The notes under the pieces: model-generated
The model's database searches: none
The model's input: only the letters and a program-made list of their open reading frames with translations
Told to the model about the DNA's origin: nothing
In this document: piece after piece, positions 46,318-64,000 of the stretch
How positions within the stretch are numbered: the stretch's first letter is position 1
Layout of the letters: every line of letters begins with the position of its first letter
Program-made: the position numbers and the translations under genes
DNA from: Komagataeibacter sp. FNDCF1
GTDB lineage: Bacteria; Pseudomonadota; Alphaproteobacteria; Acetobacterales; Acetobacteraceae
DNA: 64,000 bases
Reading direction: 5' to 3'
Assembly (NCBI RefSeq): GCF_021295335.1
Contig: NZ_JAIWOT010000001.1
Location: 1,739,001 to 1,803,000, forward strand

Positions 46318-46480
46318 TTACTCTAAGAGCAGGTTACGCACGGGCACTCTACCGGCCATACGCTGATAGCCTTCCGGAACGGGATAGTGCTGGTCGCCGC
46401 TGTCACACACAGAACGCAGTCGTAGAGGATGCGTGGGCCCCGCAGCAGGCGCTCGAAATCCACAACGGCATCGAAGGCCT
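46318..46480 (-). pseudogene. SGNH/GDSL hydrolase, C-terminal fragment
   Basis: The minus-strand frame reads AFDAVVDFERLLRGPTHPLR, then SVCDSGDQHYPVPEGYQRMA and ends LLLE at 46318. The catalytic Asp-x-x-His block of SGNH hydrolases is usually SGDHLHPxxxGY; here it is SGDQHYPVPEGY. The rest of the gene is missing where IS1182 copy 1 begins. Confidence 0.6.
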
Positions 46481-46482
46481 AG

Positions 46483-47931
46483 CAGCCTGTCGGGTTGGGC
46501 ATTTTGCGGCTGATAACGCCGAGGCTGACCCGGCTTATGCTGCCTGAAGCCGTGCCATTCTTTTGCAGTTGTATGCGAGAGCGACGAGGGTCCATTCAGT
46601 CGTGACTTTTGCAAGGCCACGCAGACTGAATCTTCTGAAGCCCATGATGCTTTTGATAATTCCAAAGACCGGTTCAACGGTCTGTTTTCGTAGTCTGTAA
46701 ATATTTCCGGCTTTTGTGGTTTCCAGTTTTTTCTTCATGGCAAGCCGCCAGGGTTCGGTGATCCGGCGCGGTTCCCTGTCTTCAGGAGGTGGCCGGAAGT
46801 CATAAGGCCTGCGGGCGCAGGGCCGTCCGATGGCGACCAGCGGATCGATGCCTTTTTTCCGCAGGTCCCGGACCGCCTGCCCGCTGGCGTAACCGGTGTC
46901 GGCGAGCACTGTCTTTGGGAGACCGATCGTGTGTTCCATCGACAGCACGGTGCTGGCAAAGGATGGCGCGTCCGCTGACGTGGCGACAACGTCGGTTGTC
47001 ACGATCAGCTGACTGCCTTCGGCGCAGACCACGGCCTGGGCATTGTAAGCCTGCCGGAACTCGTGGGCGTCCGAACGCCGCATGAGGCGGCTGTCGGGAT
47101 CGGTCAGACTGATCTGCCGGTCGGGTGGCGGTTCATCATCCGGCGGTTTCGGCGCCCTGCCACGACGCCCTGTTTTCGCATCATAAGCGGCTTTCTTCTT
47201 CTCGTATGCCGGTCGCGCCGCCTCGGCCTGCGCTTTCGCATCTGCTTCCAGCCGGGCGCAGGCTTCGTCCAGCTTCGCTTTCAGTGTTTCCCGTCGGGCA
47301 AGCTCTTCTGGCAGGGCCTGCGGATCTCTGTCTGTGGCATCTGCGTGCTCCGCCTGGTCCATCAGTTTCGCGATATCCACCGCCAGCTGTTCGCGCAGTG
47401 CCCTGATCCGGTCGTAGCGCAGGGAACGGTATTTCGAAGCGTCGGCATCAATTTTCGTGCCGTCAATCGATACGACACCCAGACGCAGCAGACCCGTCTC
47501 GCGCGCCAGAAGCAGGACCTGCGCAAATGCAGCTTCAATGGCTGTCCGGTTCGTCCGGCGGAAGGTCGCAATCGTATCATGATCCGGATGCAGGTTCGCC
47601 GCCACGAAGCGTACCCCGATGTCGCGATATGTCGCCCGCTCGATCCGGCGTGAGGAAAACAACCCGTTCGCATAGCTGAAGATCAGAAGGGCCAGCATCA
47701 GGCGCGGATGATACTGCGCCTTGCCTCCCGTGCGCACTGGCACGCAGAACGCACTCATCGGAACCCGCTCAACAGCTGCGACAATGAAATGCGCCATATC
47801 GTCAGCCGGAAGCCACGACGTCAGATCAGGCGGCAGAAGATACGGCTGGGATCGGTCAAACGGGATGAAGCGGCTCATCGCGACACTCTACAGCCTTACC
47901 CCTTCACAGGGTACCCCAACCCGACAGGCTG
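46483..47931 (-). mobile_element. IS1182-family element, copy 1
   Basis: This 1449-bp element has ends CAGCCTGTCGGGTTGGG and CCCAACCCGACAGGCTG, flanked by the 4-bp palindromic target CTAG (46479-46482 and 47932-47935). The right CTAG is also the end of the neighbouring IS427 remnant. Confidence 0.92.
46535..47878 (-). CDS. IS1182-family transposase, copy 1
   Basis: This intact protein has 447 residues. PFDRSQPYLLPPDLTSWLPA is at the start. The DDE core has VSIDGTKIDADASKYRSL (Asp) and VLADTGYASGQAVRDLRKKG (Asp). EPVFGIIKSIMGFRRFSLRG carries the Glu. A long charged helical insert (KAKLDEACARLEADAKAQAE) lies in the middle, as usual for the family. Confidence 0.94.
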   Translation of the reverse strand: MSRFIPFDRSQPYLLPPDLTSWLPADDMAHFIVAAVERVPMSAFCVPVRTGGKAQYHPRLMLALLIFSYANGLFSSRRIERATYRDIGVRFVAANLHPDHDTIATFRRTNRTAIEAAFAQVLLLARETGLLRLGVVSIDGTKIDADASKYRSLRYDRIRALREQLAVDIAKLMDQAEHADATDRDPQALPEELARRETLKAKLDEACARLEADAKAQAEAARPAYEKKKAAYDAKTGRRGRAPKPPDDEPPPDRQISLTDPDSRLMRRSDAHEFRQAYNAQAVVCAEGSQLIVTTDVVATSADAPSFASTVLSMEHTIGLPKTVLADTGYASGQAVRDLRKKGIDPLVAIGRPCARRPYDFRPPPEDREPRRITEPWRLAMKKKLETTKAGNIYRLRKQTVEPVFGIIKSIMGFRRFSLRGLAKVTTEWTLVALAYNCKRMARLQAA

Positions 47932-47935
47932 CTAG

Positions 47936-48560
47936 AGCGTGTCGTCAGTTAATTCCGATGATGGCGGAAACGAGTTGCACTGCTGCGAGGAATGTTGACT
48001 TCAGCTTGTCGTAGCGTGTTGCAATGCCTCTGAACTGCTTCAGCCTGGCGAAGAAACGTTCAATGATGTTTCTGTTTTTGTAGAGATGGGAGCTGATTTT
48101 CCGTGGATCGCGTCGGTTTTTCCTTGAAGGGATAACCGGTGCGATCTGCCGTTCTTCGATCTTTTCGATAAGCGGATCGGGGTCATAAGCCTTGTCGGCG
48201 ATAAAGGCTGCAGGGTCGACTTCATCCAGCAGGGGGTCTGCTTCCGTGATGTCCGCTCTCTGCCCGGGCGTCAGGGACAGCGCAACCGCCTTTCCTGCGG
48301 CATCGACAATGACGTGGATTTTCGAAGTCAGTCCGCCACGGGACCGCCCGATGGCCTGATCCGCGCCCCTTTTTTACGGGCATCCGCACTGTGCTGGTGA
48401 GCCCGGACAATCGTGCTGTCGATCATCATGTATTCGTTGTCACGATCGGCGGCCAGATGCCGGAAAATCCGTTCGATTACGCCGCCTTCGCACCAGCGAC
48501 GCAGTCGCCGGTGGATGTTTTTTCAGTCACCAAAACGGACAGGAGGGTAGGCCAGCCATC
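47936..48560 (-). pseudogene. IS5-family (IS427 group) remnant
   Basis: Read on the minus strand: WCEGGVIERIFRHLAADRDN, then YMMIDSTIVRAHQHSADARK, a CGTAAAAAAGGG slippery site, then GLTSKIHVIVDAAGKAVALS, FIADKAYDPDPLIEKI and NIIERFFARLKQFRGIATRY, ending AAVQLVSAIIGIN at 47945. The 5' part has an in-frame stop and no recognisable IS end, so the copy is truncated. Confidence 0.8.
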
Positions 48561-49411: not shown

Positions 49412-49954
49412 ATGTCCGATACAAAAACTGTTTCCACCTATCTGCGTCCCATCGACCGGACCGGACTGCTGGGTTTTGCAGAAAAAGGGCGCAACAACCC
49501 CGATAACTTCGGCACGAACAAGGTCCATACCGTGTGCGAAGGCCAGTACCGCACGCTCAGCTATGTCGGGCAGCATGCCCCGGTAGTGGTGGATGAACCG
49601 CTTCATCTGTTTGGCCAGAACACGGCCCCGGCCCCGGGTGAGATCGTCCTATCCGCACTGGGCGGCTGCCTGGCTGTCGGCATTACGGCGGTTGCCACAT
49701 ACCGGGAAGTAAAGCTGAGCAAGCTGGAACTCTGGCTGGAAGGCGACATTAGCAATACGGCGGCATGGGGTGCCGGTGGGGCTGAGCGCAAGCCCGAGGA
49801 AATGGGCTTCCAGCGCATTCGCGTAAAAGTGGCGGTGGAAGGCGATGCCCCGCGTGAGGCACTGGATGCCATCGTGCAGCATGCCAATTATTTCTCCCCC
49901 GTTGCCAATACGATGCGCAATCCCGTTCCCATGACGATCAGCCTTGCAGACTGA
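49412..49954 (+). CDS. OsmC-family protein lacking the second active cysteine
   Basis: This 180-residue OsmC/Ohr-fold protein has the core (GEIVLSALGGCLAVGITAVA) with the first cysteine at Cys86. The position normally holding the second cysteine (CPV in thiol peroxidases) reads NYFSPVANT, with Ser162. A canonical two-cysteine peroxidase mechanism is therefore not possible; binding of, or transfer to, a small electrophile is an alternative. Cys42 is elsewhere in the fold. The start at 49412 follows AGGAG. It is the first gene of the cyanate-linked run and ends 42 bp before the flavoenzyme. Confidence 0.85.
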   Translation: MSDTKTVSTYLRPIDRTGLLGFAEKGRNNPDNFGTNKVHTVCEGQYRTLSYVGQHAPVVVDEPLHLFGQNTAPAPGEIVLSALGGCLAVGITAVATYREVKLSKLELWLEGDISNTAAWGAGGAERKPEEMGFQRIRVKVAVEGDAPREALDAIVQHANYFSPVANTMRNPVPMTISLAD

Positions 49955-49996
49955 GTTTTATGGCACCGCATGCCGGTAAAAGGAGACCGTCTTTCC

Positions 49997-51118
49997 ATGT
50001 CAGCCCGGAACATGACACAGGCCGTTCAGGCGGATACGTCTCTTCTCCAGCGCGTTGACGAGATCGCACGGGGGCCGCTGGCTGCAATCGTGACGGATAT
50101 TGACCTGAACGGTCATTATCCGCTCGAAATCCTGCGCACGCTGGGGGAAGCGGGGGCGCTGGCCCCCCATCTCCAGCGCAATGGGGCGGATTTTGGCCTG
50201 GCCATTCAGGCCATGGCCACCGTCAGCCGCCAGTGTGGTGCAACCGGCTTCCTTATGTGGTGCCACATGGTCTGTGGCCTTTATCTCGAAAAAGCGCCCG
50301 ATAGCGCACTCAATATGGAACTGCTGTCCACCCATGCCCTTGGGCACAGCTTTGGCGGCACGGCGCTGTCCAACCCCATGAAGGCCCTGGCCGGGATCGA
50401 GCGCATGGCGCTTGAAGCCACGCCGGCGCCGGGTGGCTATCGTGTCAGCGGGGTGCTGCCGTGGGTTAGTCATATCGCGCCGGGGCAGTATTGTGGCGCC
50501 ATGGCCCGGATAGACGGACAGAAAGGGCGCGAGATCCTGTTCCTGCTCCGTTTCGATGGACAGGCGACGCTTCGCCCCTGCCCCCATTTTTCCGGGATGG
50601 AAGGCACGAGTACATGGAGCATCCGTCTCGATGATTACTTCCTGCCCGCGCACGATGTCATTGCCGTGCCGGCCCAGCCGCTGGTCAGCGTCATAAAGGC
50701 GCCCTTCATCCTGCTACAGGCCGGCATGGCGGCCGGTGTCGTGCAGGGATGCATTGATTCCATGCTGGAGGTTGAACCCCAGCTTGGCCATGTCAACCGC
50801 TTCCTCGAAGACCGGCCGGACACCATGCAGGCCGAACTGGATGCCTTTACACAACGTGCCCTGAAACTGGCGCGTACACCGGCCGAGACGGACCCATCAT
50901 ACCTGCTGGATGTGCTGGACGTGCGGGCCCATGGCTCCGAACTGGCGCTGCGCGCGTCGCAGTCTGCCCTGCTGCATCAGGGGGCACGGGGGTATCTGAG
51001 CACTGCCGCCCCGCAGCGCCGGGTCCGGGAAGCGCAGTTCGTGGCAATCGTAACCCCCGCGATCAAGCACTTGCGTCTGGAAATGGCGCGGCTCATGACG
51101 GAGGAACTGCCCGCATGA
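49997..51118 (+). CDS. Acyl-CoA-dehydrogenase-like flavoenzyme
   Basis: This protein has the acyl-CoA dehydrogenase fold and is about 373 residues, from ATG 49997 behind AAAGGAG. The N-terminal helical domain has [20 protein letters not shown] and [20 protein letters not shown]. The middle beta domain has [19 protein letters not shown], and the C-terminal helical domain includes [20 protein letters not shown]. The usual catalytic Glu region of true dehydrogenases is not recognisable, so it may be a flavin-dependent monooxygenase or desulfurase-type relative (DszC/SfnB-like). Its stop overlaps the rubredoxin reductase start, which suggests the two work as a pair. Confidence 0.8.
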
Positions 51119-52443
51119 TTCCCTACCGCAAATTCATCTGTCGGGTCTGTGGCTGGATCTATGACGAAGCCTTGGGGGACGCCGATGGCGGCCTGCCGCC
51201 CGGAACGCGGTTTGATGATATCCCCGATGACTGGGCATGTCCCCTGTGTGGCGTGACCAAGGCAGATTTCGAACCCTATGTCCTGCCGGCTGCCGCCGTT
51301 ACGGCCGGGACGACGCCCGACATATCCGTTACTGCCCGCAGCGTATGGGACGCCGTGATCGTAGGGGGCGGCACGGCAGGCTGGGCGGTGGCCGAGCGCC
51401 TGCGCGCCCTGAGTCCGTCCGCACGGATCGCACTGGTCACCGGGTGCGCGGGTGACCTATACGCCAAGCCCCAGTTGTCCGTGGCGTTGTCACGCAATCT
51501 GGATGCAACCAGCCTGTGCCAGGGTCAGGGTGCGGATACGGCCGCAGGCATGGGGATCACGCTGATGGGCGGGACCTTCGCCTCCGGCATCGATCCGCAC
51601 GCACACCGGCTGCGCACCACGCGGGGCACGCTGCGATATGGCGCGCTGGTTCTGGCGCAGGGCGCGCAGCCCGTGCGCGTACCCAGCCTGCCGGCGGATC
51701 TGGTGTGGCGGGTCAATTCCCTGTCGGCTTGGCTAAGGCTGCGCCGGAGCATTGGCGACACGCCACGGCGCATCGTGCTGGTTGGCGCTGGGCTGGTCGG
51801 ATGCGAACTGGCGGAAGATGCGGCCAAGGCCGGGCACACGGTCACGCTGATCGGTCGCGGCCCCTATCCGCTGGATGGTCTTGTGCCGCCCGCGGCGGGA
51901 CGGCGTCTTGGCGCACGGCTGGAGCATGCCGGGATTCATGTCATGAACGATACTTTCGTTCATAACGTTACGAAATCAGAACGTACGGTGGGGGTAAATG
52001 TTGTGACATCAGGCCACCCTGCCCTGTGTGAAGCCGATATCGTAATTGCCGCCATCGGGCTGGAAACCAACCTGCATCTGGCCCATACGGCGGGGCTGGA
52101 TACGGATAACGGCATTGTGGTTGAACCGGCAACGCTGCGTACCAGCCAGACCGATATCTATGCATTGGGTGACTGCATCAGCATCCACGGCCAGCCCTGT
52201 CGCTATATCGGCCCGATTGCCGCGCAGGCGGATACGATTGCGCACGAAATCCTGGGGCTGCGCCATGCGGGGTATGCCCACCAGCCGCCGAAAGTGCGGC
52301 TGAAAAGCAGGGTGGCCCCGCTGGAACTGACCGGCACGCCCGACCCGGCCGCGCCATGGGAAGTCGTGACGGACACGACCGAACGCCTTGTCATGCAACA
52401 ACGCCGTGGCAGCGCCACGACAGCGCGGCTGGAGGTATCGTGA
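51115..52443 (+). CDS. Rubredoxin-FAD-dependent NAD(P)H reductase fusion
   Basis: The first 55 residues are a complete rubredoxin ([10 protein letters not shown] and [11 protein letters not shown]; iron ligands Cys9, Cys12, Cys42, Cys45). From about residue 80 a pyridine-nucleotide-disulfide-type reductase follows, with an FAD motif ([16 protein letters not shown]), an NAD(P) motif ([16 protein letters not shown]) and a C-terminal FAD motif (TDIYALGDC). The fusion delivers electrons from NAD(P)H through FAD to rubredoxin on one chain. It overlaps both neighbours (ATGA upstream, TGATG downstream), so it is tightly coupled to the flavoenzyme and the transporter. Confidence 0.9.
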
Positions 52444-53720
52444 TGAGCGGATTTTCCTTCCTGCGCCCACCGCGCGCCACCCTGCTGCAGTGCGCCCCCG
52501 CTGTTCCGGCCGGGGCGGTGTGCGGCTGCGGTGCCGTACATGCCCCGCCCGCGCGTATTGGCCGCCGGGCGGTGCTGGGCGCGCTGGCAGCGGGAACGGT
52601 GCTGGGCAGCCTGCCGTCCCCGCTGCGTGCGGCAGTGCCGGCAGGCCCGCTGGAACGGGCCGATGTCACCATCGGGTTTGTCCCGATTTCCTGCGCCGCA
52701 CCGCTGATCATGGCGGAAGCGCGGGGCTTCTTCATACAGGAAGGATTACGGGTACAACTGCAGAAAACGGCAAACTGGGCGCTGGTCCGCGACCGGCTGC
52801 TCGATGGTCACCTGAATGCATCTCACCTGCTTTCGCCCATGCCGCTGGCGCTTTCGCTCGGGCTGGGCGGCAATGCGCCGCATGCCGTGCGCGTGGCCAG
52901 CATGCAGAATCTTAACGGGCAGGCCATCACCCTTGCCCTGCGCCATCATGACCGGCGCGATCCGCGGCAGTGGAAGGGAATGACCTTCGCCATCCCGTTT
53001 GAGTTTTCCATGCACAACCTGCTGTTGCGCGCCTATCTGGCGCGGCACGGGCTGGACCCGGACCATGACGTGACCCTGCGCGTGACCGCCCCGCCAGACA
53101 TGGTCGCCAACCTGCGGGCCGGCAATATTGACGGTTTCCTGGGGCCAGAGCCCTTCAACCAGCGCGCGGTCATCGAGGAAGTGGGCTTCATACATATCCT
53201 GACAGCGGAGATATGGGACGGCCACCCGTGCTGTGCCTTCGGCATGACGGCGGCATTCATGGACGCCAGCCCCAATACCGCCGCCGCCCTGCAGCGCGCG
53301 ATGATCCGCGCCGCCGATTTCATGCAGCAGCCTGACAACCGCGCGCAGGCCGCACGGATCATGGCCCAGCCGCGTTACCTGAATCAGCCCGAACTGGTCA
53401 TTCGCCAGAGCCTGACTGGGCATTACGCCGATGGCCTCGGCGTGGTGCGCGACAATCCGCGTCGGGCGGCCTATTCGCCCTACCCCTATCCGTCCATGGC
53501 GGTATGGATCATGTCGCAGTTTGAACGGTGGGGATACCTGAAGGGGCCGGTGGACTACCGCGACGTGGCCCAGCAGGTCTTCCTGATCGATACGGTCAGG
53601 CAGCAGGCGCAGGCCATGAACCTCCCCCAGCCTGCGGATGGGGGCAACAACTGGCCCTCCTTCAATATCATGGGACAGCATTTCGATCCTGACCATCCGT
53701 CTTTCTTCAATCAGGGATAG
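52443..53720 (+). CDS. ABC transporter substrate-binding protein, NrtA/CynA type
   Basis: This is a periplasmic binding protein of the nitrate/cyanate family, 425 residues. A twin-arginine signal (ARIGRRAVLGALAAGTVLGS) sits about 45 residues in, behind a cysteine-containing N-terminal stretch (QCAPAVPAGAVCGCG) that is unusual. The mature part has ADVTIGFVPISCAAPLIMAE, HNLLLRAYLARHGLDP and NIDGFLGPEPFNQRA, all typical of NrtA/CynA/SsuA-like proteins. The ligand cannot be told, but the adjacent cyanase favours cyanate or a precursor. Confidence 0.88.
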   Translation: MSGFSFLRPPRATLLQCAPAVPAGAVCGCGAVHAPPARIGRRAVLGALAAGTVLGSLPSPLRAAVPAGPLERADVTIGFVPISCAAPLIMAEARGFFIQEGLRVQLQKTANWALVRDRLLDGHLNASHLLSPMPLALSLGLGGNAPHAVRVASMQNLNGQAITLALRHHDRRDPRQWKGMTFAIPFEFSMHNLLLRAYLARHGLDPDHDVTLRVTAPPDMVANLRAGNIDGFLGPEPFNQRAVIEEVGFIHILTAEIWDGHPCCAFGMTAAFMDASPNTAAALQRAMIRAADFMQQPDNRAQAARIMAQPRYLNQPELVIRQSLTGHYADGLGVVRDNPRRAAYSPYPYPSMAVWIMSQFERWGYLKGPVDYRDVAQQVFLIDTVRQQAQAMNLPQPADGGNNWPSFNIMGQHFDPDHPSFFNQG

Positions 53721-53725
53721 CCGCC

Positions 53726-54586
53726 ATGATTTCAGTAGAAAGCCGTCGGGCCTTTTTCCTTTTCCTTGCCCTTTTCGCGGGGCTGTTGCTGGTCTGGCAG
53801 CTTTCCACCGCGTCCGCACCCGAACGGTCTCCATACGGTATCCCGCAGGGCAATGCGGAATACCAGATGCTGATGGGCCACGCCCCGGGTACGACCCAGA
53901 CCCGGGAAGGCTTTCCCGGCCCGGCCCGCTTTGTCGCATCCGCCCTGCAGGCCCTGCACGCGCCGTTTCATAATAATGGCCCCAGTGACCGGGGCATTGG
54001 CTGGCAGGTTGGCGCGTCCCTGCTGCGTGTTGCGATCGGATACGGGCTGGCGGTTGTGGTTGCAGTGCCGTTGGGGTTCCTGATCGGGCTGCGTCCCGTC
54101 ATCCGCCGCGCGGTTGACCCGTTTATCCAGATCCTGCGCCCGATTTCGCCTCTGGCATGGATGCCGCTTGCGCTTTACACGATCCGCAATGCAGAAGGCT
54201 GCGGCATTTTTGTCATCTTCATCTGTTCCCTGTGGCCCATTGTACTCAACACGGCCTTTGGTGTCGGCAGCGTGCGCCGGGAATGGCTGAATGTCGCCCG
54301 CACGCTGGAAGTCGGCTGGGCGCGCAGGGTGCTGTTCGTCCTGCTGCCGGCGGCGGCACCGACCATCATTACCGGCATGCGGATCGGGCTGGGGATCGCG
54401 TGGCTTGCCATTGTCGCGGCCGAGATGCTGGTGGGCAGTTCGGGCATTGGCTACTTCGTGTGGAACCAGTGGAACAACCTGTCCCTTTCCAACGTGCTGC
54501 TGGCGGTCCTGCTGATCGGTTTTACGGGCATGGTGCTGGACGGCGCGCTGGCGGCCCTGCAGAGGAGCGTGACCTATGCCGAATGA
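53726..54586 (+). CDS. ABC transporter permease, NrtB/CynB type
   Basis: This inner-membrane permease has 286 residues and about six hydrophobic helices. The EAA loop is VARTLEVGWARRVLFVLLPA followed by AAPTIITGMRIGLGIAW, as in nitrate/taurine/cyanate permeases. It starts 5 bp after the binding protein and overlaps the ATPase start by 11 bp. Confidence 0.9.
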   Translation: MISVESRRAFFLFLALFAGLLLVWQLSTASAPERSPYGIPQGNAEYQMLMGHAPGTTQTREGFPGPARFVASALQALHAPFHNNGPSDRGIGWQVGASLLRVAIGYGLAVVVAVPLGFLIGLRPVIRRAVDPFIQILRPISPLAWMPLALYTIRNAEGCGIFVIFICSLWPIVLNTAFGVGSVRREWLNVARTLEVGWARRVLFVLLPAAAPTIITGMRIGLGIAWLAIVAAEMLVGSSGIGYFVWNQWNNLSLSNVLLAVLLIGFTGMVLDGALAALQRSVTYAE

Positions 54587-55415
54587 TAACGCATTGGCAC
54601 CAACCACCATGGCCCATGACACATCCCGGCCGCTGGTTGAGGTCTCCATGCTGGAAAAACGGTATGGCAATAGCGGACCACCGGTATTTTCCGATGTGTC
54701 GTTCACGATCCAGCCCGGTGAATTCGTCTGCCTGATCGGCCATTCGGGATGCGGCAAAAGCTCCATACTCAATATCCTGGCAGGGCTGGAACAGCCGTCC
54801 GGTGGCACGGTCATCATGGATGGGTGCGAGATCAATGGCCCGGGTCTGGAGCGTGGTGTCGTCTTTCAGGGCCATGCCCTGCTGCCGTGGCTCAGTGCGG
54901 TGCAGAACGTGGCCTTTGCCGTACGGTCGCGCTTTCCCACCCTCTCACGTACCGAAATAAAGGAAAAGGCCGAATACTACCTGCATCTGGTCGGCCTGCG
55001 GAACGCGCTGGACAAGAAGCCGGCCGAACTGTCGGGCGGCATGCGCCAGCGCGTGGGGATTGCCCGCGCCTTTTGCACGCAACCCCGCATGCTGCTGATG
55101 GATGAACCCTTTGGCGCACTGGATGCCCTGACACGCGGGTTGATCCAGGAGGAACTTCTCCAGATCTGCGCCCGCACGCAGCAGACCGTCTTCATGATCA
55201 CGCATGATGTTGATGAAGCGATCCTGCTGGCGGAACGTGTTTTACTGATGAGCAACGGGCCTGATGCCCGTCTGGCGGAAAGCATCGACAACCCGTTGCC
55301 CCGCACCCGGACACGGGAAAGCATGCATCATGAAACCGGGTTTTACGATCTGCGCAACCACCTTGTCGACTTTCTGGTCCGCCGCTCCGCGCTGGTCAGC
55401 AAGGGCGAAAACTGA
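54576..55415 (+). CDS. ABC transporter ATP-binding protein, NrtD/CynD type
   Basis: This 279-residue ATPase has Walker A GHSGCGKSS (55-63), signature LSGGMRQR (152-159) and Walker B RMLLMDEPFGALDALTR, with a H-loop in MITHDVDEAILLAERV. The relationship is to the nitrate/sulfonate/cyanate group. It ends 20 bp before cyanase. Confidence 0.92.
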   Translation: MPNDNALAPTTMAHDTSRPLVEVSMLEKRYGNSGPPVFSDVSFTIQPGEFVCLIGHSGCGKSSILNILAGLEQPSGGTVIMDGCEINGPGLERGVVFQGHALLPWLSAVQNVAFAVRSRFPTLSRTEIKEKAEYYLHLVGLRNALDKKPAELSGGMRQRVGIARAFCTQPRMLLMDEPFGALDALTRGLIQEELLQICARTQQTVFMITHDVDEAILLAERVLLMSNGPDARLAESIDNPLPRTRTRESMHHETGFYDLRNHLVDFLVRRSALVSKGEN

Positions 55416-55435
55416 CGTCATGAAAGGAAATGACC

Positions 55436-55891
55436 ATGCCTGTATTCGAAAGCCGTGAAGAGGTCACGCATGCCATCATTGCCGCGCGCGTGGCCAGAGG
55501 CATCCGCTGGGCGGATGTAGCAACGGCCGTGGGCCGGAGCAAGGAATGGACCACGGCGGCCTGTTTTGGCCAGATGACCTTCAGCAAAGGAGAGGCCGAG
55601 GCCCTTGTCGCATTGCTTGACCTTGATCCCTCAGCCCTGGCGTGGCTGCAGACCGTGCCCTACAAGGGCACGCTGGGCGGCGGCGCGCCGGATGATCCGC
55701 TGCTGTACCGCTGGTATGAAATGATCAGCGTCTATGGTCCCGCCATCAAGGAACTGATCCATGAGGAGTTCGGGGACGGGATCATGAGCGCCATTGACTT
55801 CAAGATGCATATCGAACGCGAACCCGATCCGGCGGGTGACCGGGTCCATGTGAATATTTCCGGAAAATTCCTGCCTTACAAAAAATACTGA
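55436..55891 (+). CDS. cynS: Cyanase (cyanate hydratase)
   Basis: This enzyme converts cyanate plus bicarbonate to ammonia and carbon dioxide (via carbamate). The 151 residues comprise an N-terminal HTH-like domain and a C-terminal catalytic domain with DDPLLYRWYEMISVYGPAIK and FGDGIMSAIDF. The three catalytic residues known from the E. coli enzyme are conserved (here Arg92, Glu95, Ser118). The ATG at 55436 is preferred over 55430 because AAAGGA is better placed. As the last gene of the run it detoxifies, or draws nitrogen from, cyanate entering through or made by its neighbours. Confidence 0.96.
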   Translation: MPVFESREEVTHAIIAARVARGIRWADVATAVGRSKEWTTAACFGQMTFSKGEAEALVALLDLDPSALAWLQTVPYKGTLGGGAPDDPLLYRWYEMISVYGPAIKELIHEEFGDGIMSAIDFKMHIEREPDPAGDRVHVNISGKFLPYKKY

Positions 55892-55930
55892 CAGTATTAT
55901 CCGGGCGGAATTCAATATTCTGCCCATACT
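55892..55930 (+). terminator. Hairpin after cynS
   Basis: GGGCGGAAT (55903-55911) pairs with ATTCTGCCC (55917-55925) with a 5-nt loop, and AGTAT/ATACT adds an outer stem. The T-run is absent, so it may be a transcript-stabilising hairpin or a weak terminator. Confidence 0.4.
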
Positions 55931-55965
55931 ATAAAATAACAGAAAATAAAATTATCGTCCCAGGA

Positions 55966-55982
55966 CGGTACGGTTTCTTGCG
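55966..55982 (+). promoter_or_regulatory. Sigma-54-like promoter candidate for the porin gene
   Basis: CGGTACG-N5-TTGCG resembles the -24/-12 consensus TGGCACG-N4-TTGC but with one extra base in the spacer. It lies about 40 bp upstream of the porin start. The nearby sigma-54-type activator makes it worth noting; the spacer length argues against full activity. Confidence 0.25.
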
Positions 55983-57332
55983 CTCTTTACGGTCCGACAT
56001 CGTAACAAGGAGTACAGACCATGTCGCATGCCTACAGGACTCTTCTTCCCGCACAGGCGCAGTTGTTCACAAAGGCTGCCGCCCTGTCCATCACGCTTGC
56101 AGGTCTGGGCTCATCGGGCGCATACGGGGCGGCCCCGGTCACGGACCTTACGCGCGGCGGCCTGCCCCCACCCAATACGGCGCGACTGGTGCCAAAGGTC
56201 ATAACGACCCCGCCTGCACAGGGTGCGCCACAGGTTAAAAAGACCGTACCCATGCCTGCCTGGCTGGGCCGGTTTACCGCAGCCAATGGCGCGGCATCCG
56301 GCTTCGGTACGGTTGGCCCATACGGGCAGGCCCGCTGGGCCGAGGACTGGAGCTTTCTTGCCCATGAACCCGCCGATGTCCGGCGCAGGGACTGGTTCAA
56401 CCGCCTGAAATACGTGCGGCTGAATGACAGTGGCTCCATCTGGGTCAGTTTCAGCGGGGAAGAACGCCTACGCTATGTGTTTGAAAACCAGCCGGCACTG
56501 GGCAAGGCCGGGGTGACGGATGCTAGAGCATAATCCGATCAGTCTGGTTCATATCCAGCGGCGGTGAAGCACGCAGCGGCCTGGCGATGAGAGATATCGT
56601 CAATTGCTTCACAGACGGTATTTTGAAGAGCGTCGAGGGTTCGCGGTGCCACCCGTCTGATCCACGCCTTCATTTTGGCGAAGATGTTTTCGATCGGGTT
56701 GAAATCAGGACTGTAGGGCGGCAGGAACAACAACCTGGCGCCGACTGCCTCCACAGCCTCGCGGGCAACGGCTCCTTTATGGGCGGGCAGATTGTCCAGA
56801 ATGACGACGTCTCCCGGCGACAGGGTTGGAACGAGCACCTTGCGGGTATAGGCGGCAAACCATTCGCCGGTCATTGGGCCGTCCAGCATCATCGGTGCTG
56901 TCATGCCGGAGAGGCGCAGCCCGCCGATGAACGTCGTGGTTTTCCAGTGCCCGTGGGGCACGGACATCCGACAGCGCGTGCCCCGTTGTGACCGCCCCCG
57001 CAGGCGGGCCATCTTCGTTGAGACGGCTGTTTCGTCGATGAAGATCAGACGGGCCGGATCAAGGTCAGGCTGACTGTCAAACCAGGCCTCGCGCCGCTGT
57101 GCGACGTCGGGCCGTGTCTGCTCGCTGGCGTGCGCCGTTTTTTTTGATGGTCATGTCGTGACGGTCGAGACAGCGCCAGATCGTGCTCGGCGCAAAGCGG
57201 ACACCGTGTTCCGCTGCAAGTGTCTCCGCCAGTTCGACAAGGGAAATATCGGCCTTTGTTTCAATCGCGGCCAGCAGGAAGGCTGACCACGCTTCAATCC
57301 GGTGAGAACGGCGATCACCGCCCTGTTTAATA

Positions 57333-58490
57333 CCAAGGGCTATTGTCTCTGACTCATCTGTGAAGTGACGCGAAGGGCCTGTTCTGATTCTGTTGTGAGA
57401 GGGAGGATCGGGAATGGCTGGTGCGATTGCTTTACGGACGGATTATACGGCTTCTGCGTTACGACGTCTGGCTTCTCGTACGCGGGATGCGAATGTTGCA
57501 CGGCGCCTTTTGTCTCTGGCTGCGGTGCGCGATGGTGCCAGCCGTGGCGAAGCGGCGCGGATCGGCGGCATGGACCGGCAAACCCTGCGGGACTGGGTGC
57601 ACCGGTTCAATGCTACGGGGCCGGATGGTTTGCGGGACCAATGGCGCAACGGGTCGGTCTGCCGCCTGACAGCGGACCAACTGGCAGAATTATCGGCGCT
57701 GGTCACGACAGGGCCTGACCGTGCCCGGGACGGTGTGGTGCGCTGGCGTCGGGTCGATCTTCAGCGGGTCATCGAAGAGCGTTTTGGCGTCTCCTATCAC
57801 GAACGCCATGTCTCCACCCTGCTGAAGCGGCTTGGGTTCAGCCACGTCAGCGCGCGTCCGCGTCACCCCGGACAGGATCCATCCGTCATGGACGCGTTTA
57901 AAAAAACTTCCCCACGATCCTGAGCGCCCACACCGGACATCTGCCCAAGGGCAGGCGGATTGAACTCTGGTTTCAGGACGAGGCCCGCATCGGGCAGAAG
58001 AACGGCCTTGTCCGACAATGGGCGCGGCGTGGCACCCGACCACGCCAGCCGGCCGACCAGCGCTACGAGAATGCCTGGCTGTTCGGGGCGATCTGCCCGG
58101 CACTTGGCAAGGCGGCAGGCCTGGTGCTGCCGTTTACCGGCACGGCCAGCATGCAACTGCATATCGAGGAAATCTCACGCTGCGTCGCACGCGGCGCCCA
58201 TGCCGTCGTCCTGCTCGATCGTGCCGGCTGGCATACGACACCCAAACTCAGACTGCCGCGCAACGTCAGCCTGGTCTTCCTGCCGTCCCGCGCGCCCGAA
58301 CTGAACCCGGTCGAGAATATCTGGCAGTTCCTCCGCGCCAACTGGCTGTCCAACACCGTGTTCAGTGGCATCGAACACATCATCGAAGCCGCATGCACCG
58401 CATGGAACAACCTCACCGCCCTGCCACAGACCATCCGATCCATCGGTCTCAGAAACTGGGCTCATATAGGTCAAAGGTGATAGCCCTTGG
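57333..58490 (+). mobile_element. IS630-family element D
   Basis: The inverted ends CCAAGGGCTAT and ATAGCCCTTGG lie at TA (57331-57332 and 58491-58492), inside the transposase gene of element C. It is a different IS630 lineage from C. Confidence 0.88.
57414..58480 (+). CDS. IS630-family transposase of element D, with frameshift site
   Basis: The first frame holds the HTH domains (GASRGEAARIGGMDRQTLRD, YHERHVSTLLKRLGFSHVSA) and ends at 57923. The next frame carries LPKGRRIELWFQDEARIGQK (first Asp), HAVVLLDRAGWHTTPKL and SRAPELNPVENIWQFLRANW. The switch falls at GTTTAAAAAAACTTCC near 57900, a plausible programmed frameshift. Confidence 0.85.
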
Positions 58491-59955
58491 TATAAGCGCA
58501 TGGTCACGACCGCTGGCCTGCCACTCAGCAACCCAGCGGATAACGCTCGACGAAGACACACCAAAACGAACCGCCGCCGCACGACGGGTCATGCCAGAGG
58601 CAACAGCCGCAATCGTGCGGCGGCGAAGGTCAGCAGACAGGGCTCGGGTCATACGGGTCGGCCTCCATACCGGCACATAGTATGAATCAGATTTCGACCA
58701 GTAGGGGAATCTTAAAATGAACCTATTAGATCGGATTATGCTCTAGTCGTGTTCTGCTGCGCAACCAGTACGGGGCCGACCTGCATCTGGGGTCGCATGT
58801 CCGTATCTATGCCGAACTGCTTGATGCCGTGGCCGGCGGGTCGAATACATACGGCTACCAGACCGGCCTGCAACGTGAACGGCTGGACATGCAGCAGGGC
58901 TTTGTCGAACTGCGGGGCCACTTCCTCGGCGCGCATATGGGGGTCATGGGAGGGCGGCAGCTGTTCCTTGATGCACCGGTCATGATGCAGTCCGCGCGTG
59001 ATATCCCCAACGTGCAGCAGACATGGGACGGCTTTCGTGGTTATGCGTTATGGAAGAACTTTCGGGTAGACATCTTTGATTTCTTCCAGACGAACAAACA
59101 GCCGGTTGGCATATTTTCCAATGGTACGAACTATTCCGGCCGATTGTACGGCGCCTATGCGTCCGGCGCGCTTCCCGCCTTCCAGTTCATGGGGCAACGC
59201 TCCCAGCTTTACCTTGATGCGTTCTTCATGGGCTACCTGTATGGCAGTCCGCTGGCATCAGTCCCCACGGCATCGGTTGGTGGTGCCACGGCGGGCACGA
59301 CGCGCCGGGATGGCATCGGCGGGCGGCTGTGGGGCAAGGTTGGCCCGTTTAGCGTGAATCTTGACGGCATTTATCAAGGTGGCTCGTTCCATCCCGTCAA
59401 TAATGGCGCACACCGGCGGGTGGATGCCTATGCGGTCAATGGCGGCATCAATTACACCATTCCCAAGGTTCCGGGCGCACCAACCTTCGGCGTGCAGGCG
59501 GATCTGTTCTCGGGTGGGAATTACAACCAGACATCGGGATCGGTAGGAACGTTTGGCACGCCCTATTTCCCGCTTCCCTACTATAATGACGTGACCATGA
59601 CCCTGAACAACCAGAACCTGGTCGGGGTTGGCCCGGTCATGACCTATGCGGTGGCGAAAAAGGTCTCGCTGCGGCTGCATGCGCCGTTCTTCTGGCGTGA
59701 TAGCACGCAGGACGCGCTGTACGGGATCGGGCGCGTCTATACTCCGCGCGACGGGCTGCACGGGGGATATGTGGGTGCCATACCACAGTTCCAGGTCAGT
59801 TGGTCCTTTGCCCCGCACTGGGTCTGGACGCATGATATTGCCGGTATCCTGGCCTCCCGTGGCGTGCGCGCGGCAGGGCTGCATTCAGGCGCCTATTACA
59901 TGCAGACCATGCAGTTCGTATTCTGACTGACAGAAGCGCTCTGTCCCTGTAGGCT

Positions 59956-60012
59956 ACCATCTGGCTGCCAGCGTCCCCTCGCGGGCTGCCAGCCAGATGG
60001 TTCCTTTTCCTT
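59956..60012 (+). terminator. Rho-independent terminator after the porin gene
   Basis: ACCATCTGGCTG (59956-59967) pairs perfectly with CAGCCAGATGGT (59990-60001). Additional inner pairing and TCCTTTTCCTT follow. It separates the porin from the activator gene. Confidence 0.8.
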
Positions 60013-60031
60013 ATCAGGCTTGCTGGCACAT

Positions 60032-61594
60032 ATGTCCGGTTCCGACACCCACGATGGTTTCCCTGCCGAGTTCTGGCGTTCACAGGAAATCCTGCTGCTC
60101 AAGAACGTCATGGCCCTTGTGGGCCGGGGGCTTGATCTTGATGGCGTGCTGCGTGAGGTCGTGCACCTGCTCTCGGAACTGCTGGGGCTCAACCGCGCGC
60201 GCATCATCCTCAAGGACCCGGAAGGGGATACCTACCGCATCCGCCATGCCTATGGCCTGACAACAGCCGAGATTACACGCGGTGTCTACCGGCTGGGCGA
60301 GGGCATAACGGGGGCGGCACTGAAGAACCGGCATCTGATTATCGTGCAGGATATCGACAAGGAACCCCTTTTCCTTGGCCGTGCCGTCCTGCGTGAGCAC
60401 CTGCCACCGGAAAAGGTGGCTTTCATCGCCATGCCCATTGACCTGGGACACAACCGGGTCGGCCTGATCGCGTGCCACAGGCTGCGACACCGGAACAGGA
60501 ACCTGTCCGATGACATCATGATCCTGCAGATCATATCCACCCTTATCGGCCAGTTGATGAAACTGGGCGATACGGTGGAAGAACAGACGCGCGCCCTGCA
60601 CGAGCATAACCAGTTGCTGGAAAATGCGCTGGAAAACGCCACCATGCGGTATGGCATCATTGGCACTTCACCTGCCCTGCTGAAGGCGATTACCGAGCTT
60701 GAAGGCGTATCGCACGCGTCATCCAGCGTGCTGCTGTGCGGGGCTGCGGGAACGGGCAAGGAACTGTTTGCGCGCGCGCTGCATATGGCCAGTCCCCGTC
60801 GCGCGCAGCCCTTTGTGCGTGTCAACTGCGCCGCCATTCCCGAAAACGCATTTGAAACCGAGCTTTTCGGCCACGAACGCGGGGCTTTTCCTGGGGCAAG
60901 GGCACGTCGGCTGGGGCAGCTTGAACAGGCGCATACCGGGACGCTTTTCCTTGATGAAGTTGGTGAACTTCCCTTGGCCATACAGGGCCGGCTGCTGCAC
61001 GTGTTCGAGCAGGGCACATTATCGCGCGCCGGTACGGCGCTTTCGCGCAGGATCGACATCCGCATTGTCAGCGCGACCAGCCAGAACTTGCGCAAGCGTG
61101 TCGAGACGGGGCTGTTCCGCTATGATCTGTTCTACCATCTTAATGTCATACCCATCACGTTGCCGACCCTTGCCGCCCGCAGGGAGGACATTCCCCTGCT
61201 GTGCAGCCATTTCCTCAGCCAATTCAACCAGCGGCATGAACGTAACATCAGCCTGTCCCGGTCTGCAGTCGAACTGCTGACAGAACAGGACTGGCCGGGT
61301 CATATCCGCCAGCTTGCCAATGTTATTGAACGTGTCGTGCTGCTCGCGCCACAACCGGTCATCACGGCACGGGAACTGCGCGCCTTCCTGCATGACATTA
61401 CGCAGCCGGTTCCATTGCAGCCACTACAGGGCGAACGTGCATATCGGCCGTATCTTTCCGCTTCTTCCCATTCCAAGGAAGAACTGCTGCATGCGCTCAG
61501 GCTGAATGGCGGCAACAAGTCACGCACCGCGCAGCAGTTGGGCATGACGGCACGGCAGCTTCATTATCGTTTGAAGTTGTTTGATGTTGTCTAG
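60032..61594 (+). CDS. Sigma-54-type activator (GAF-AAA+-Fis), NifA-like, variant GAFTGA loop
   Basis: This is an enhancer-binding activator of about 520 residues. The GAF sensor domain spans residues about 20-170. The AAA+ domain has Walker A GAAGTGKE, ELFGHERGAFPGARARRLGQ, Walker B GTLFLDEVGEL and DIRIVSATSQNLRKRVETGL. The C-terminal Fis HTH is ALRLNGGNKSRTAQQLGMTA followed by RQLHYRLKLF. The sigma-54-contacting loop reads GAFPGA instead of GAFTGA. ATG 60032 is preferred over TTG 60020. The stop TAG is part of the CTAG target of an IS1182, so the native end may be a few residues longer. It probably controls the porin and the cyanate run. Confidence 0.88.
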   Translation: MSGSDTHDGFPAEFWRSQEILLLKNVMALVGRGLDLDGVLREVVHLLSELLGLNRARIILKDPEGDTYRIRHAYGLTTAEITRGVYRLGEGITGAALKNRHLIIVQDIDKEPLFLGRAVLREHLPPEKVAFIAMPIDLGHNRVGLIACHRLRHRNRNLSDDIMILQIISTLIGQLMKLGDTVEEQTRALHEHNQLLENALENATMRYGIIGTSPALLKAITELEGVSHASSSVLLCGAAGTGKELFARALHMASPRRAQPFVRVNCAAIPENAFETELFGHERGAFPGARARRLGQLEQAHTGTLFLDEVGELPLAIQGRLLHVFEQGTLSRAGTALSRRIDIRIVSATSQNLRKRVETGLFRYDLFYHLNVIPITLPTLAARREDIPLLCSHFLSQFNQRHERNISLSRSAVELLTEQDWPGHIRQLANVIERVVLLAPQPVITARELRAFLHDITQPVPLQPLQGERAYRPYLSASSHSKEELLHALRLNGGNKSRTAQQLGMTARQLHYRLKLFDVV

Positions 61595-63043
61595 CAGCCT
61601 GTCGGGTTGGGCATTTTGCGGCTGATAACGCCGAGGCAGACCCGGCTTATGCTGCGTGAAGCCGAGCCATTCTTTTGCAGTTGTATGCGAGAGCGACGAG
61701 TGTCCATTCGGTCGTAACTTTTGCAAGGCTGCGCAGACTGAATCTTCTGAACCCCATGATGCTTTTGATAATTCCAAAGACCGGTTCAACGGTCTGTTTT
61801 CGTAGTCTGTAAACATCTCCGGCTTCTGTGGTTTCCAGCCTGTCCTTCATGGCTAGCCGCCAGGGTTCGGTTATCCGGCGTGGCTCCTTGTTTTCAGGAG
61901 GTGGCCGGAAATCATATGGCCTGCGGGCGCGAGGCCGTCCGATGGCGACCAGCGGATCGATGCCTTTTTTCCGCAGGTCCCGGACTGCCTGCCCGTTGGG
62001 GTAACCGGTGTCGGCGAGCACTGTCTTTGGGAGACCGATCGTGTTTTCCATCGACAGCACCGTGCTGGTAAAGGACGGCGCGTCCGCTGACGTGGCGACA
62101 ACGCCGGTTGTCACGATCAGCTGGCTGCCTTCAGCGCAGACCACAGCCTGAGCATTGTAAGCCTGCCGGAACTCATGGGCGTCCGAACGCCGCATGAGGC
62201 GGCTGTCCGGATCAGTCAGGCTGATCTGTCTCTCGGGTGGAGGTTCATCATCGGGCGGTTTCGGCGCCCGGCCGCGACGCCCTGTTTTTGCGTCATAGAC
62301 GGCTTTCTTTTTCTCGTATGCCGGTCGCGCCGCCTCGGCCTGAGCCTTCGCGTCAGATTCCAGCCGGGCGCAGGCTTCATCCAGCTTCGCTTTCAGCGTT
62401 TCCCGGCGGGCAAGTTCTTCCGGCAATGCCTGCGGATCACTGTCTGTGGCGTCCGCGTGCTCCGCCTGTTCCATCAGTTTCGCGATATCCACCCCCAACT
62501 GTTCACGCAGGGCCCTGATCCGGTCGTAGCGCAGGGAGCGGTATTTCGAGGCGTCGGCATCAATCTTCGTGCCGTCGATCGACACCACACCCAGACGCAG
62601 CAGGCCCGTCTCGCGCGCCAGAAGCAGGACCTGCGCAAATGCAGCTTCAATGGCCGTCCGGTTCGTTCGGCGAAAGGCGGCAATCGTGTCGTGATCCGGA
62701 TGCAGGTTCGCCGCCACGAAGCGCACCCCGATGTCACGATATGTCGCCCGCTCGATCCGCCGTGAGGAAAAAATCCCGTTCGCGTAACTGAAAATCAGAA
62801 GAGCCAGCATCAGCCGCGGATGATACTGCGCCTTGCCACCCGTGCGCACCGGCACGCAGAACGCGGTCATCGGAACCCGCTCAACAGCGGCAACAATGAA
62901 ATGCGCCATATCGTCAGCCGGAAGCCACGACTTCAAATCAGGCGGCAGAAGATACGGCTGAGACCGGTCAAACGGGATAAAGCTACTCATCTCATAACCT
63001 TACAACCGCCCCCCTTCACAGGGTACCCCAACCCGACAGGCTG
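61595..63043 (-). mobile_element. IS1182-family element, copy 2
   Basis: This 1449-bp element has the same ends as copy 1, flanked by CTAG (61591-61594 and 63044-63047). The left CTAG supplies the stop codon of the activator gene; the right CTAG abuts an IS630 end. Confidence 0.92.
61647..62990 (-). CDS. IS1182-family transposase, copy 2
   Basis: This 447-residue protein is close to copy 1, with scattered substitutions (for example DTGYPNGQAVRDLRKKG for DTGYASGQAVRDLRKKG). The catalytic Asp, Asp and Glu blocks are kept and it appears intact. Confidence 0.94.
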   Translation of the reverse strand: MSSFIPFDRSQPYLLPPDLKSWLPADDMAHFIVAAVERVPMTAFCVPVRTGGKAQYHPRLMLALLIFSYANGIFSSRRIERATYRDIGVRFVAANLHPDHDTIAAFRRTNRTAIEAAFAQVLLLARETGLLRLGVVSIDGTKIDADASKYRSLRYDRIRALREQLGVDIAKLMEQAEHADATDSDPQALPEELARRETLKAKLDEACARLESDAKAQAEAARPAYEKKKAVYDAKTGRRGRAPKPPDDEPPPERQISLTDPDSRLMRRSDAHEFRQAYNAQAVVCAEGSQLIVTTGVVATSADAPSFTSTVLSMENTIGLPKTVLADTGYPNGQAVRDLRKKGIDPLVAIGRPRARRPYDFRPPPENKEPRRITEPWRLAMKDRLETTEAGDVYRLRKQTVEPVFGIIKSIMGFRRFSLRSLAKVTTEWTLVALAYNCKRMARLHAA

Positions 63044-63047
63044 CTAG

Positions 63048-64000
63048 AGCGTTTTCTTTTCAATCTGGTTCATATCCAGCGGCGGTGAAGAAGTTGGCGC
63101 ATTCTGTGGGTGTGAACAGATCGATGAGAGAACCGATCCTGTCCCACAGAGCGTCGCGTGTGCGTTCGGCGGCGCGGCGCAGATGGGCCTTGAGTTTTGA
63201 GAAGGCCATCTCGATCGGGTTGAAGTCAGGGCTGTAGGGCGGCAGAAACAGGAGAGTTGCACCAGCGGTCTCGATTGCTGCCTGCACGGCCGCTCCCTTG
63301 TGGGAGCCGAGATTGTCCATCACGACCACATCGCCCGGTCGCAGGTCCGGCACGAGGACACGCTCGACATAGATCTGGAAGCTCCGGCCGTTGATCGGCC
63401 CGTCCAGCACCATCGGTGCGACCAGGCCGGTCAGCCTCAGGCCCGCGATGAAGGTGGTTGTTTTCCAGTGCCCATGGGGAACGGCCGAGCGCAGCCGCTG
63501 GCCGCGCGGGGCACGACCGTAGCGTCGTGCCATGTTGGTCGACGCCCAGGTCTCATCAATGAACACAAGGCGATCGGGATCGAGATCGGGCTGAGCGTCG
63601 AACCAGTCCTGCCGACGCTTCAGGACGTCCGGTCGGTCTTGCTCTGCCGCATGGGCTGTCTTTTTTTCCATGTGATCCGGTGCCGGGCACAGAAGCGCCA
63701 CAGCGTGCCGACGCTAAAATGATGCCCTTCTTCAGCCAGTTGCGCCCGGATTTCGACCAGCGTCAGGTCATCCTTCTCGTCGATCAGGGCGCGAATACGC
63801 GCGGCCTGCGCCTCGATCCGGCCTGAGAGGCGATCACCGCCTCGCGGCTTCGGCGTGACACTCCCGGTCTCTCGGGCCAGGGTACACCAACGGATCGCAC
63901 TGGCTGGACTGACACCAAACCGTTCGGCGGCCTGGCGGCGGGACAGGCCACCGGACACGGCTGCTACAACACGTTCACGAAGATCCAGAGACAGCGTACG
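63048..64000 (-). mobile_element. IS630-family element E (runs off the window)
   Basis: It starts at a TA within the CTAG shared with IS1182 copy 2, with the end GAGCGTTTTCTTTTC followed by CTGGTTCATATCCAGCGG, which is shared with element C. The other end is beyond the window. Confidence 0.85.
63060..64000 (-). CDS. IS630-family transposase of element E, two frames (5' end outside window)
   Basis: The upstream frame (from beyond 64000 to 63620) has the [23 protein letters not shown] and [20 protein letters not shown]. The downstream frame (about 63701-63060) has the DDE core: [32 protein letters not shown] and [20 protein letters not shown]. They overlap at a run of A residues (ATGGAAAAAAAGAC, about 63660-63672), a likely frameshift site. 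Confidence 0.87.

Follow-up and report, generated by a model that had tools for sequence, protein, structure and literature searches.

What is a cyanase gene doing in one operon with a flavoenzyme, a rubredoxin reductase and an OsmC-like protein? The question arises from a 64,000-nucleotide stretch of the 3.74 Mb genome of Komagataeibacter sp. FNDCF1 (contig NZ_JAIWOT010000001.1, positions 1739001-1803000; hereafter the window). Here an NrtA/CynA-type ABC transporter adjoins the cyanase gene cynS, and upstream of both lie genes for an OsmC-like protein, a flavoenzyme of the acyl-CoA dehydrogenase fold and a fusion of rubredoxin with a rubredoxin reductase. In our judgement, the balance is even for and against this operon encoding an undescribed oxidative pathway that would turn thiocyanate (SCN-) into cyanate and sulfane sulfur. 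No title or abstract start listed in searches of PMC, which covers few subscription papers, deals with this gene set.

Linkage of the flavoenzyme to cyanase and sulfane-sulfur genes

A first-pass annotation of this DNA had linked the flavoenzyme to cyanase, and the link holds well beyond the window. In a draw of 299 genomes from the phylum, the window's own included, the flavoenzyme (counted at E below 1e-100, with a weaker group at E 1e-57 to 1e-44 excluded) was found in 16, the window's own being one, or roughly one genome in twenty, and cyanase was found in 55. Thirteen of the 16 flavoenzyme genomes carry cynS versus 42 of the 283 others (Fisher 2.8e-8). Five of the 16 share one genus; counted by genus, cynS occurs in 8/11 with the flavoenzyme and 30/170 without it (2e-4). 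The two genes lie at most about 10.5 kb apart in 10 of the 13 genomes, and on the same strand in eight of these.

The flavoenzyme is also linked to sulfane-sulfur genes. Among its 15 places outside the window (L206, which falls below the 200-bit flavoenzyme threshold, was kept among them), nine have a rhodanese gene and two others a persulfide dioxygenase gene. The controls were cynS places in genomes lacking a strong flavoenzyme hit: of 56 places, 14 lay in flavoenzyme genomes and two more were dropped, G420 as a piece at a contig edge and G371 as a short, stop-containing fragment, which left 40. At the same thresholds, none of these 40 has a rhodanese, persulfide dioxygenase or TauE gene, so that a rhodanese or persulfide dioxygenase accompanies 11/15 flavoenzyme loci versus 0/40 control cynS loci (1.1e-8). 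The sulfur genes therefore accompany the flavoenzyme and not cyanase in general. The persulfide dioxygenase matches Blh over its dioxygenase half at E 5.6e-112; its 375 bits stay below the cut-off of 625, which applies to the complete two-part Blh. The TauE/SafE gene matches PF01925. Given the phylum draw and the control set of cynS places, we reject chance adjacency of the flavoenzyme and cyn genes. The flavoenzyme is tied firmly and specifically to cyanase and to sulfane-sulfur genes. Even with a substrate other than thiocyanate, this tie would call for an explanation.

Conservation of the locus

The genes co-occur elsewhere, a point on which the first-pass annotation had made its reading depend. 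A collection-wide scan confirmed at least 582 places; the 80 named loci used here are the best of these, chosen by similarity to the flavoenzyme alignment, and 46 of the 80 have 8 kb or more of sequence to each side (full-flank loci). The tblastn counts take in a gene at any position of the fetched locus, whichever its strand; open-frame blastp gave lower numbers for cynS (40/80 overall and 31/46 full-flank) than tblastn did (48/80 and 36/46). The same gene order is found in named Alpha-, Beta- and Gammaproteobacteria. All 46 full-flank loci have both OsmC and the rubredoxin reductase, 42 the binding protein, 40 the GAF-AAA regulator and 36 cynS. A rhodanese, persulfide dioxygenase or TauE/SafE gene is present at 25/46, together with cynS at 20/46, and 5/46 have neither cynS nor a sulfur gene. 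Most of these genes share the strand of the flavoenzyme (OsmC 44/46, cynS 35/36, persulfide dioxygenase 18/20, TauE 11/13 and rhodanese 8/8).

Within the family of the window, 20 of 299 genomes (its own included) encode a relative of the flavoenzyme that reaches E 1e-30 or better, and the locus is present in 4 of the 19 genomes of its genus. A distant branch in this family (18 loci, L021-L038) has no reductase found within 9 kb. Its loci carry a two-domain rhodanese in 17 cases, OsmC in 17 (one contig begins inside the flavoenzyme gene) and both in 16; cynS is found in 8, with some contigs cut.

A dehydrogenase fold without the catalytic acids

The flavoenzyme adopts the acyl-CoA dehydrogenase fold, and its neighbors in the fold search are dehydrogenases. 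It has no acid at either of the two positions, MCAD-type and IVD-type, where the catalytic glutamate of the family stands. V361 aligns with the residue before the MCAD-type Glu, hence T362 stands in place of that Glu, and at the IVD-type site, where DYERVVL aligned against KAPFILL, the flavoenzyme again offers none. Residues I360-A364 are invariant in 38 aligned rows, and T362 and P363 are so in a separate 16-row alignment. Conserved residues elsewhere in the flavoenzyme include D45, C89, H122, E144, C204, E211, H274, N276 and H336. No named NCBI acyl-CoA dehydrogenase family passes its cut-off (the best, NF049984, gives 29 bits versus 600), and the relatives' records that we examined name the family only as acyl-CoA dehydrogenase. 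Flavoprotein monooxygenases of the XiaF or Rv3094c type gave weak sequence matches and do not appear in the 50 fold rows listed. Another member of the fold, 3-sulfinopropionyl-CoA desulfinase (5af7, 5ahs), has a CoA thioester as its substrate and ranks below 47 other fold entries, and so the search gives no sign of special kinship to it. Viral contigs searched with six flavoenzyme patterns yielded no match.

Two further relatives may be recorded here. The Synechococcus elongatus plasmid pANL (L046:11827-15850) has a distant flavoenzyme relative (28%) with DUF4242 and an ABC transporter, and genes for cysteine synthase and serine acetyltransferase lie on the same plasmid. A 40% relative occurs in a Neisseria gonorrhoeae record and was not used as evidence; among the frames from 5 to 20 kb of that locus, viewed without a homology search, none looked OsmC-, cyanase- or transporter-like.

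Reductase fusion and OsmC partner

The four rubredoxin cysteines are kept in 78/78 relatives of the reductase fusion, and all 78 loci holding both genes join the flavoenzyme and reductase frames by an in-frame start-stop overlap (ATGA in 73 and GTGA in 5). In the window this junction is an ATGA at 51115-51118, followed by a TGATG between the reductase and binding-protein genes (52441-52445) and by an 11-bp overlap of the permease and ATPase genes (54576-54586), all three as the first-pass annotation had described them.

The OsmC-like protein keeps a single cysteine, C86 in the ATG-started numbering, in 78/78 relatives; its only other cysteine, C42, is found in 19/78. OsmC/Ohr thiol peroxidases share the OsmC domain, and the GGCL cysteine of the window protein aligns with the cysteines of solved OsmC-like proteins, but those peroxidases use a two-cysteine mechanism as described in passages of PMC5157978, whereas here one cysteine is conserved. 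An OsmC of Candidatus Pelagibacter has been described under sulfur limitation, in a different gene context as far as the relevant part of that report goes (PMC5069961). On plasmid pNP7-5 of Moraxella osloensis, a CxxC protein of the AhpD/carboxymuconolactone-decarboxylase family fills the OsmC slot upstream of the flavoenzyme (L042:11181-11732).

Transporters of the flavoenzyme loci

The cyanase passes the cut-offs of both curated models (TIGR00673, NF002773), and the window resembles a canonical cynABDS operon in having an NrtA-type ABC transporter and then cynS. It differs in adding OsmC, the flavoenzyme, the rubredoxin reductase and a GAF-AAA regulator, and its relatives at other flavoenzyme loci differ further in adding the sulfur genes absent from the 40 control cynS loci. 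We built a tree of binding proteins with six control loci, leaving out L238, whose matches are weak and lie some 8 kb away from cynS. NrtA-type proteins of flavoenzyme loci are interspersed in this tree among those of plain cyn operons, whereas another clade, of 15 rows drawn from 13 loci, comes from flavoenzyme loci only. The sulfonate-type SsuA family was the best NCBIfam match in 5/5 members of this other clade scanned, though below the cut-off (85-108 bits versus 163.5), and the window protein scores 64 bits against the same SsuA-type model.

In Marinobacter, Amphritea and Alloalcanivorax, an SsuA-like transporter stands beside the core genes and cynS, and the imported compound is therefore probably a small sulfur anion. 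The cynS link persists where the transporter is exchanged (Marinobacter, Amphritea). In the window, the NrtA-type transporter may import either the sulfur compound or cyanate itself. Its binding protein, read from an earlier start (P0004, 52356-53720), has C56-x-C58 shortly before the twin-arginine signal as well as C113, C292 and C293, in 45/45 relatives.

A proposed route from thiocyanate to cyanate

Since the flavoenzyme is tied to both cyanase and sulfane-sulfur genes, it probably acts on a sulfur-bearing compound that gives rise to cyanate, for which thiocyanate is the best fit. In the proposed pathway the flavoenzyme would attack SCN-, with the rubredoxin-reductase fusion as its electron exchange partner. 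OsmC could use its single reactive cysteine to accept the sulfur or repair a thiol or peroxide by-product, a role that a rhodanese or an AhpD-like CxxC protein might also take in other bacteria. Where present, persulfide dioxygenase and the TauE/SafE exporter would carry the sulfur to sulfite and then remove it. Cyanase would convert cyanate to ammonium and CO2, so that the cell would be supplied with nitrogen (and sulfur).

The first-pass annotation had suggested a pathway that oxidizes or reduces a small imported C-N compound and releases cyanate for cyanase to remove, and it listed thiocyanate and formamides among the compounds to try. The link that it drew between flavoenzyme and cyanase is strongly supported here, but a sulfur-bearing substrate is the more probable one and formamides are unlikely, because the rhodanese, persulfide dioxygenase and TauE/SafE genes of the relatives point to a sulfur compound.

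The same overall reaction is known from Thioalkalivibrio. There, according to the parts of two reports that concern it, the copper enzyme thiocyanate dehydrogenase (TcDH) turns SCN- into cyanate and zero-valent sulfur, and cyanase follows (PMC5328954, PMC5778177). TcDH passes its electrons to cytochrome c, again from part of the latter report (PMC5778177), whereas the window operon would rely on a flavoprotein with a rubredoxin partner. The thiocyanate hydrolase pathway, by way of carbonyl sulfide, likewise frees nitrogen and sulfur from SCN-; the window genome has no match to NHase_alpha (PF02979), the family type of that hydrolase's gamma subunit. We tentatively suggest, with less than even confidence, that the operon represents a third thiocyanate route beside thiocyanate hydrolase and TcDH, namely a flavin/rubredoxin desulfurase of the acyl-CoA dehydrogenase fold with a one-cysteine OsmC acceptor, by which heterotrophs would win both nitrogen and sulfur. 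If this were true, ordinary proteobacteria would hold a widespread gene set for an oxidative cyanate route, which would help to trace and treat mining and coking effluents, and the flavoenzyme family and its OsmC partner would have a suggested function.

Several observations weigh against the thiocyanate pathway. Thiocyanate as the substrate, the direction of electron flow and the role of OsmC are points that we infer, and the case for thiocyanate is argued from gene linkage. The intermixing of NrtA-type binding proteins with plain cyn ones means that cyanate uptake could be an independent module. The window operon has none of the rhodanese, persulfide dioxygenase and TauE genes; the genome does encode a persulfide-dioxygenase homologue, but outside the operon. 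The dehydrogenase fold matches lend no support to an oxygenase. The nearest solved OsmC relative, 2opl, an uncharacterized protein, has the same SPV..NT stretch, so the one-cysteine form is not special to the operon. In the window strain the pathway may perform poorly, because its porin gene is broken, its regulator is changed and insertion sequences lie on both sides (described below). In addition, OsmC, flavoenzyme and reductase stand without cynS or sulfur genes at 5/46 full-flank loci and 21/80 overall, many of the 21 being short contigs. Such loci occur above all in betaproteobacterial metagenome-assembled genomes, mostly labelled Alcaligenaceae (L065, L079, L084, L101 and others), whose other neighbors are a malate/lactate-dehydrogenase-family (Ldh_2) gene (12 loci), a serine beta-lactamase-like hydrolase and a cupin; by eye, an isocitrate/isopropylmalate-dehydrogenase-like gene is seen there as well. 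Perhaps these loci run the same chemistry on another substrate.

Methylorubrum thiocyanatum also belongs among the points against. It carries the locus, and its type description reportedly names growth on thiocyanate in its title. The same genome encodes a thiocyanate hydrolase (TIGR03887, above cut-off), and cynS was not found on the fetched locus. We dropped the species as proof because of this hydrolase, whose gamma subunit gene adjoins a nitrile-hydratase-beta-like gene (L128, G299:C24).

Alternative explanations

One alternative deserves serious weighing, although we think it rather unlikely. The flavoenzyme could belong, with OsmC, the reductase, rhodanese and persulfide dioxygenase, to a module that desulfurizes an organosulfur compound other than thiocyanate, imported by an SsuA-like transporter, with an ordinary cynABDS module often docked beside it. 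The binding-protein tree suits this idea on two counts, the intermixing of NrtA-type proteins and the SsuA-like clade confined to flavoenzyme loci, and some rhodanese loci have no cynS in reach (L043, L045, L023-L030; some are short). Against it, cynS is present also with the SsuA-like transporter, following the reductase gene (L041, L069, L078, L086), as well as where no such transporter match lies within 9 kb (L034, L035, L038); moreover, the sulfur genes are missing from all 40 control cynS loci. A partial parallel in its favor comes from Rhodococcus erythropolis MI2, which raises OsmC-like, metallo-beta-lactamase/rhodanese and rhodanese proteins on 4,4'-dithiodibutyric acid, their genes lying together near a putative sulfite exporter gene (PMC5157978). 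The comparison is by description; the relevant passages of that report name no cyanase, and the acyl-CoA dehydrogenase raised there belongs to another cluster (PMC5157978).

The flavoenzyme might instead be the long-proposed cyanide monooxygenase, converting cyanide to cyanate, with rhodanese and cyanase as two disposal routes. Such an enzyme has been proposed and never experimentally demonstrated, according to section 3.5 of a review (PMC11049912). Both cyanase and rhodanese would fit, and a reductase-fed flavoenzyme could carry out an oxygenation, but persulfide dioxygenase and TauE point to the disposal of sulfane sulfur, and cyanide contains none. Hydrogen cyanide does not require an anion importer, and the fold neighbors of the flavoenzyme are dehydrogenases. 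We regard this proposal as improbable.

Slightly more improbable still is a small sulfur-free C-N compound (formamide-like, nitro or N-hydroxy) that would be oxidized or reduced to cyanate; the sulfane-sulfur genes at 11/15 flavoenzyme loci against 0/40 controls speak against it, even though the coupling with cynS and the lack of a dedicated sulfur gene in the window operon would suit it. Last, an ordinary acyl-CoA dehydrogenase that stands with stress proteins beside a cyn operon by chance, for which the fold and the weak family matches might speak and which the first-pass annotation had named as the case that would sink its reading, is very improbable and was rejected, given that neither known catalytic position holds an acid, that the reductase coupling is kept in all 78 loci and that the neighborhood is conserved across three classes.

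Regulator and sigma-54

The gene after the porin encodes a regulator with GAF, AAA+ and helix-turn-helix domains (PF01590, PF00158, PF02954), which the first-pass annotation had called a sigma-54 activator. The GAFTGA motif is intact in 51/58 aligned rows, and the seven exceptions are six acetic acid bacteria and one Azoarcus (GAFSGA). The variants in the acetic acid bacteria (the window, which reads GAFPGA, and L049, L050, L051, L052 and L053) are GAFPGA, GAFPTA, GAFVGA and GAFQGA. A -24/-12 sigma-54-like site lies upstream of osmC in 51/79 sequences, versus 0.4% of shuffles and 1/75 on the opposite strand, but in none of the eight sequences from acetic acid bacteria, the window included (two are nearly identical).

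The window genome gave no match to Sigma54_DBD (PF04552), which was found in 3/19 genomes of the genus and 4/14 control genomes. The four locus carriers of the genus have no sigma-54 domain match, whereas 3 of the 15 other genomes do. Carriers in Acetobacter have the domain, and Gluconacetobacter sacchari has only a fragment with a stop. The changed GAFTGA motif, the missing osmC site and the lack of a sigma-54 match in the carriers of the genus together indicate that the regulator has probably left sigma-54 control in the family of the window. For the window strain, these same features (GAFPGA, no PF04552 match and no -24/-12 site) make the label of sigma-54 activator unlikely enough that we rejected it. 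Judged from these motifs, the regulator of Komagataeibacter-type carriers would be an enhancer-binding protein that has outlived its sigma factor.

Window genes, porin break and insertion sequences

Profile searches and open reading frames placed every gene of the first-pass annotation where it had been reported (Table 1). Over 7,118 bases the operon shares 99.9% DNA identity with a contig from Komagataeibacter europaeus LMG 18890, which suggests that the host is this species or one very close to it.

Table 1. Coordinates of the operon and adjoining features in the window.
Feature	Coordinates	Strand	Evidence
OsmC-like protein, one conserved cysteine	49412..49954	+	PF02566 2e-18
Acyl-CoA-dehydrogenase-fold flavoenzyme, proposed catalytic subunit	49970..51118	+	PF02771 24.5 bits vs cut-off 22.9
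Rubredoxin + NAD(P)H:rubredoxin-reductase-like fusion, proposed to exchange electrons with the flavoenzyme	51115..52443	+	PF00301 6.7e-22, PF07992 3e-42
NrtA/CynA-type substrate-binding protein, twin-arginine-like signal	52443..53720	+	PF13379 1.4e-77, TGATG junction, tree
ABC permease, NtrB type	53726..54586	+	TIGR01183 above cut-off
ABC ATPase, NtrCD type	54576..55415	+	TIGR01184 above cut-off
Cyanase, cynS	55430..55891	+	TIGR00673 163 bits vs 113; NF002773 207 vs 150
5' part of interrupted Alginate_exp-type porin gene	56021..56522	+	blastn to intact frame, K. intermedius
IS630-like insertion in porin gene	56523..58746	.	terminal inverted repeats; PF13358 / PF13592
Second IS630-like element, nested in the first	57330-58493		terminal inverted repeats; PF13358 / PF13592
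3' part of porin gene	58747..59926	+	PF13372 4.2e-23 on 58829-59926
GAF-AAA+-Fis regulator, NifA-like build, GAFPGA	60020..61594	+	PF00158, PF01590, PF02954

The porin gene that the first-pass annotation had placed behind cynS is indeed there, but it is split by the nested IS630-like pair, which carries terminal inverted repeats of 30 and 31 bases. Its 5' fragment has no Pfam family match, and PF13372 is matched in the second fragment only. At the same position, Komagataeibacter intermedius TF2 (L049) has an unbroken frame of 561 residues, and an Acetobacter ascendens plasmid, listed as conjugative in PLSDB, bears the same nine genes with the porin gene unbroken. Two copies of a DDE_Tnp_1/DUF772 insertion sequence, 91.7% identical and in the same orientation, lie at 46479-47940 and 61591-63052, and as a flanking pair around the operon they resemble a composite transposon.

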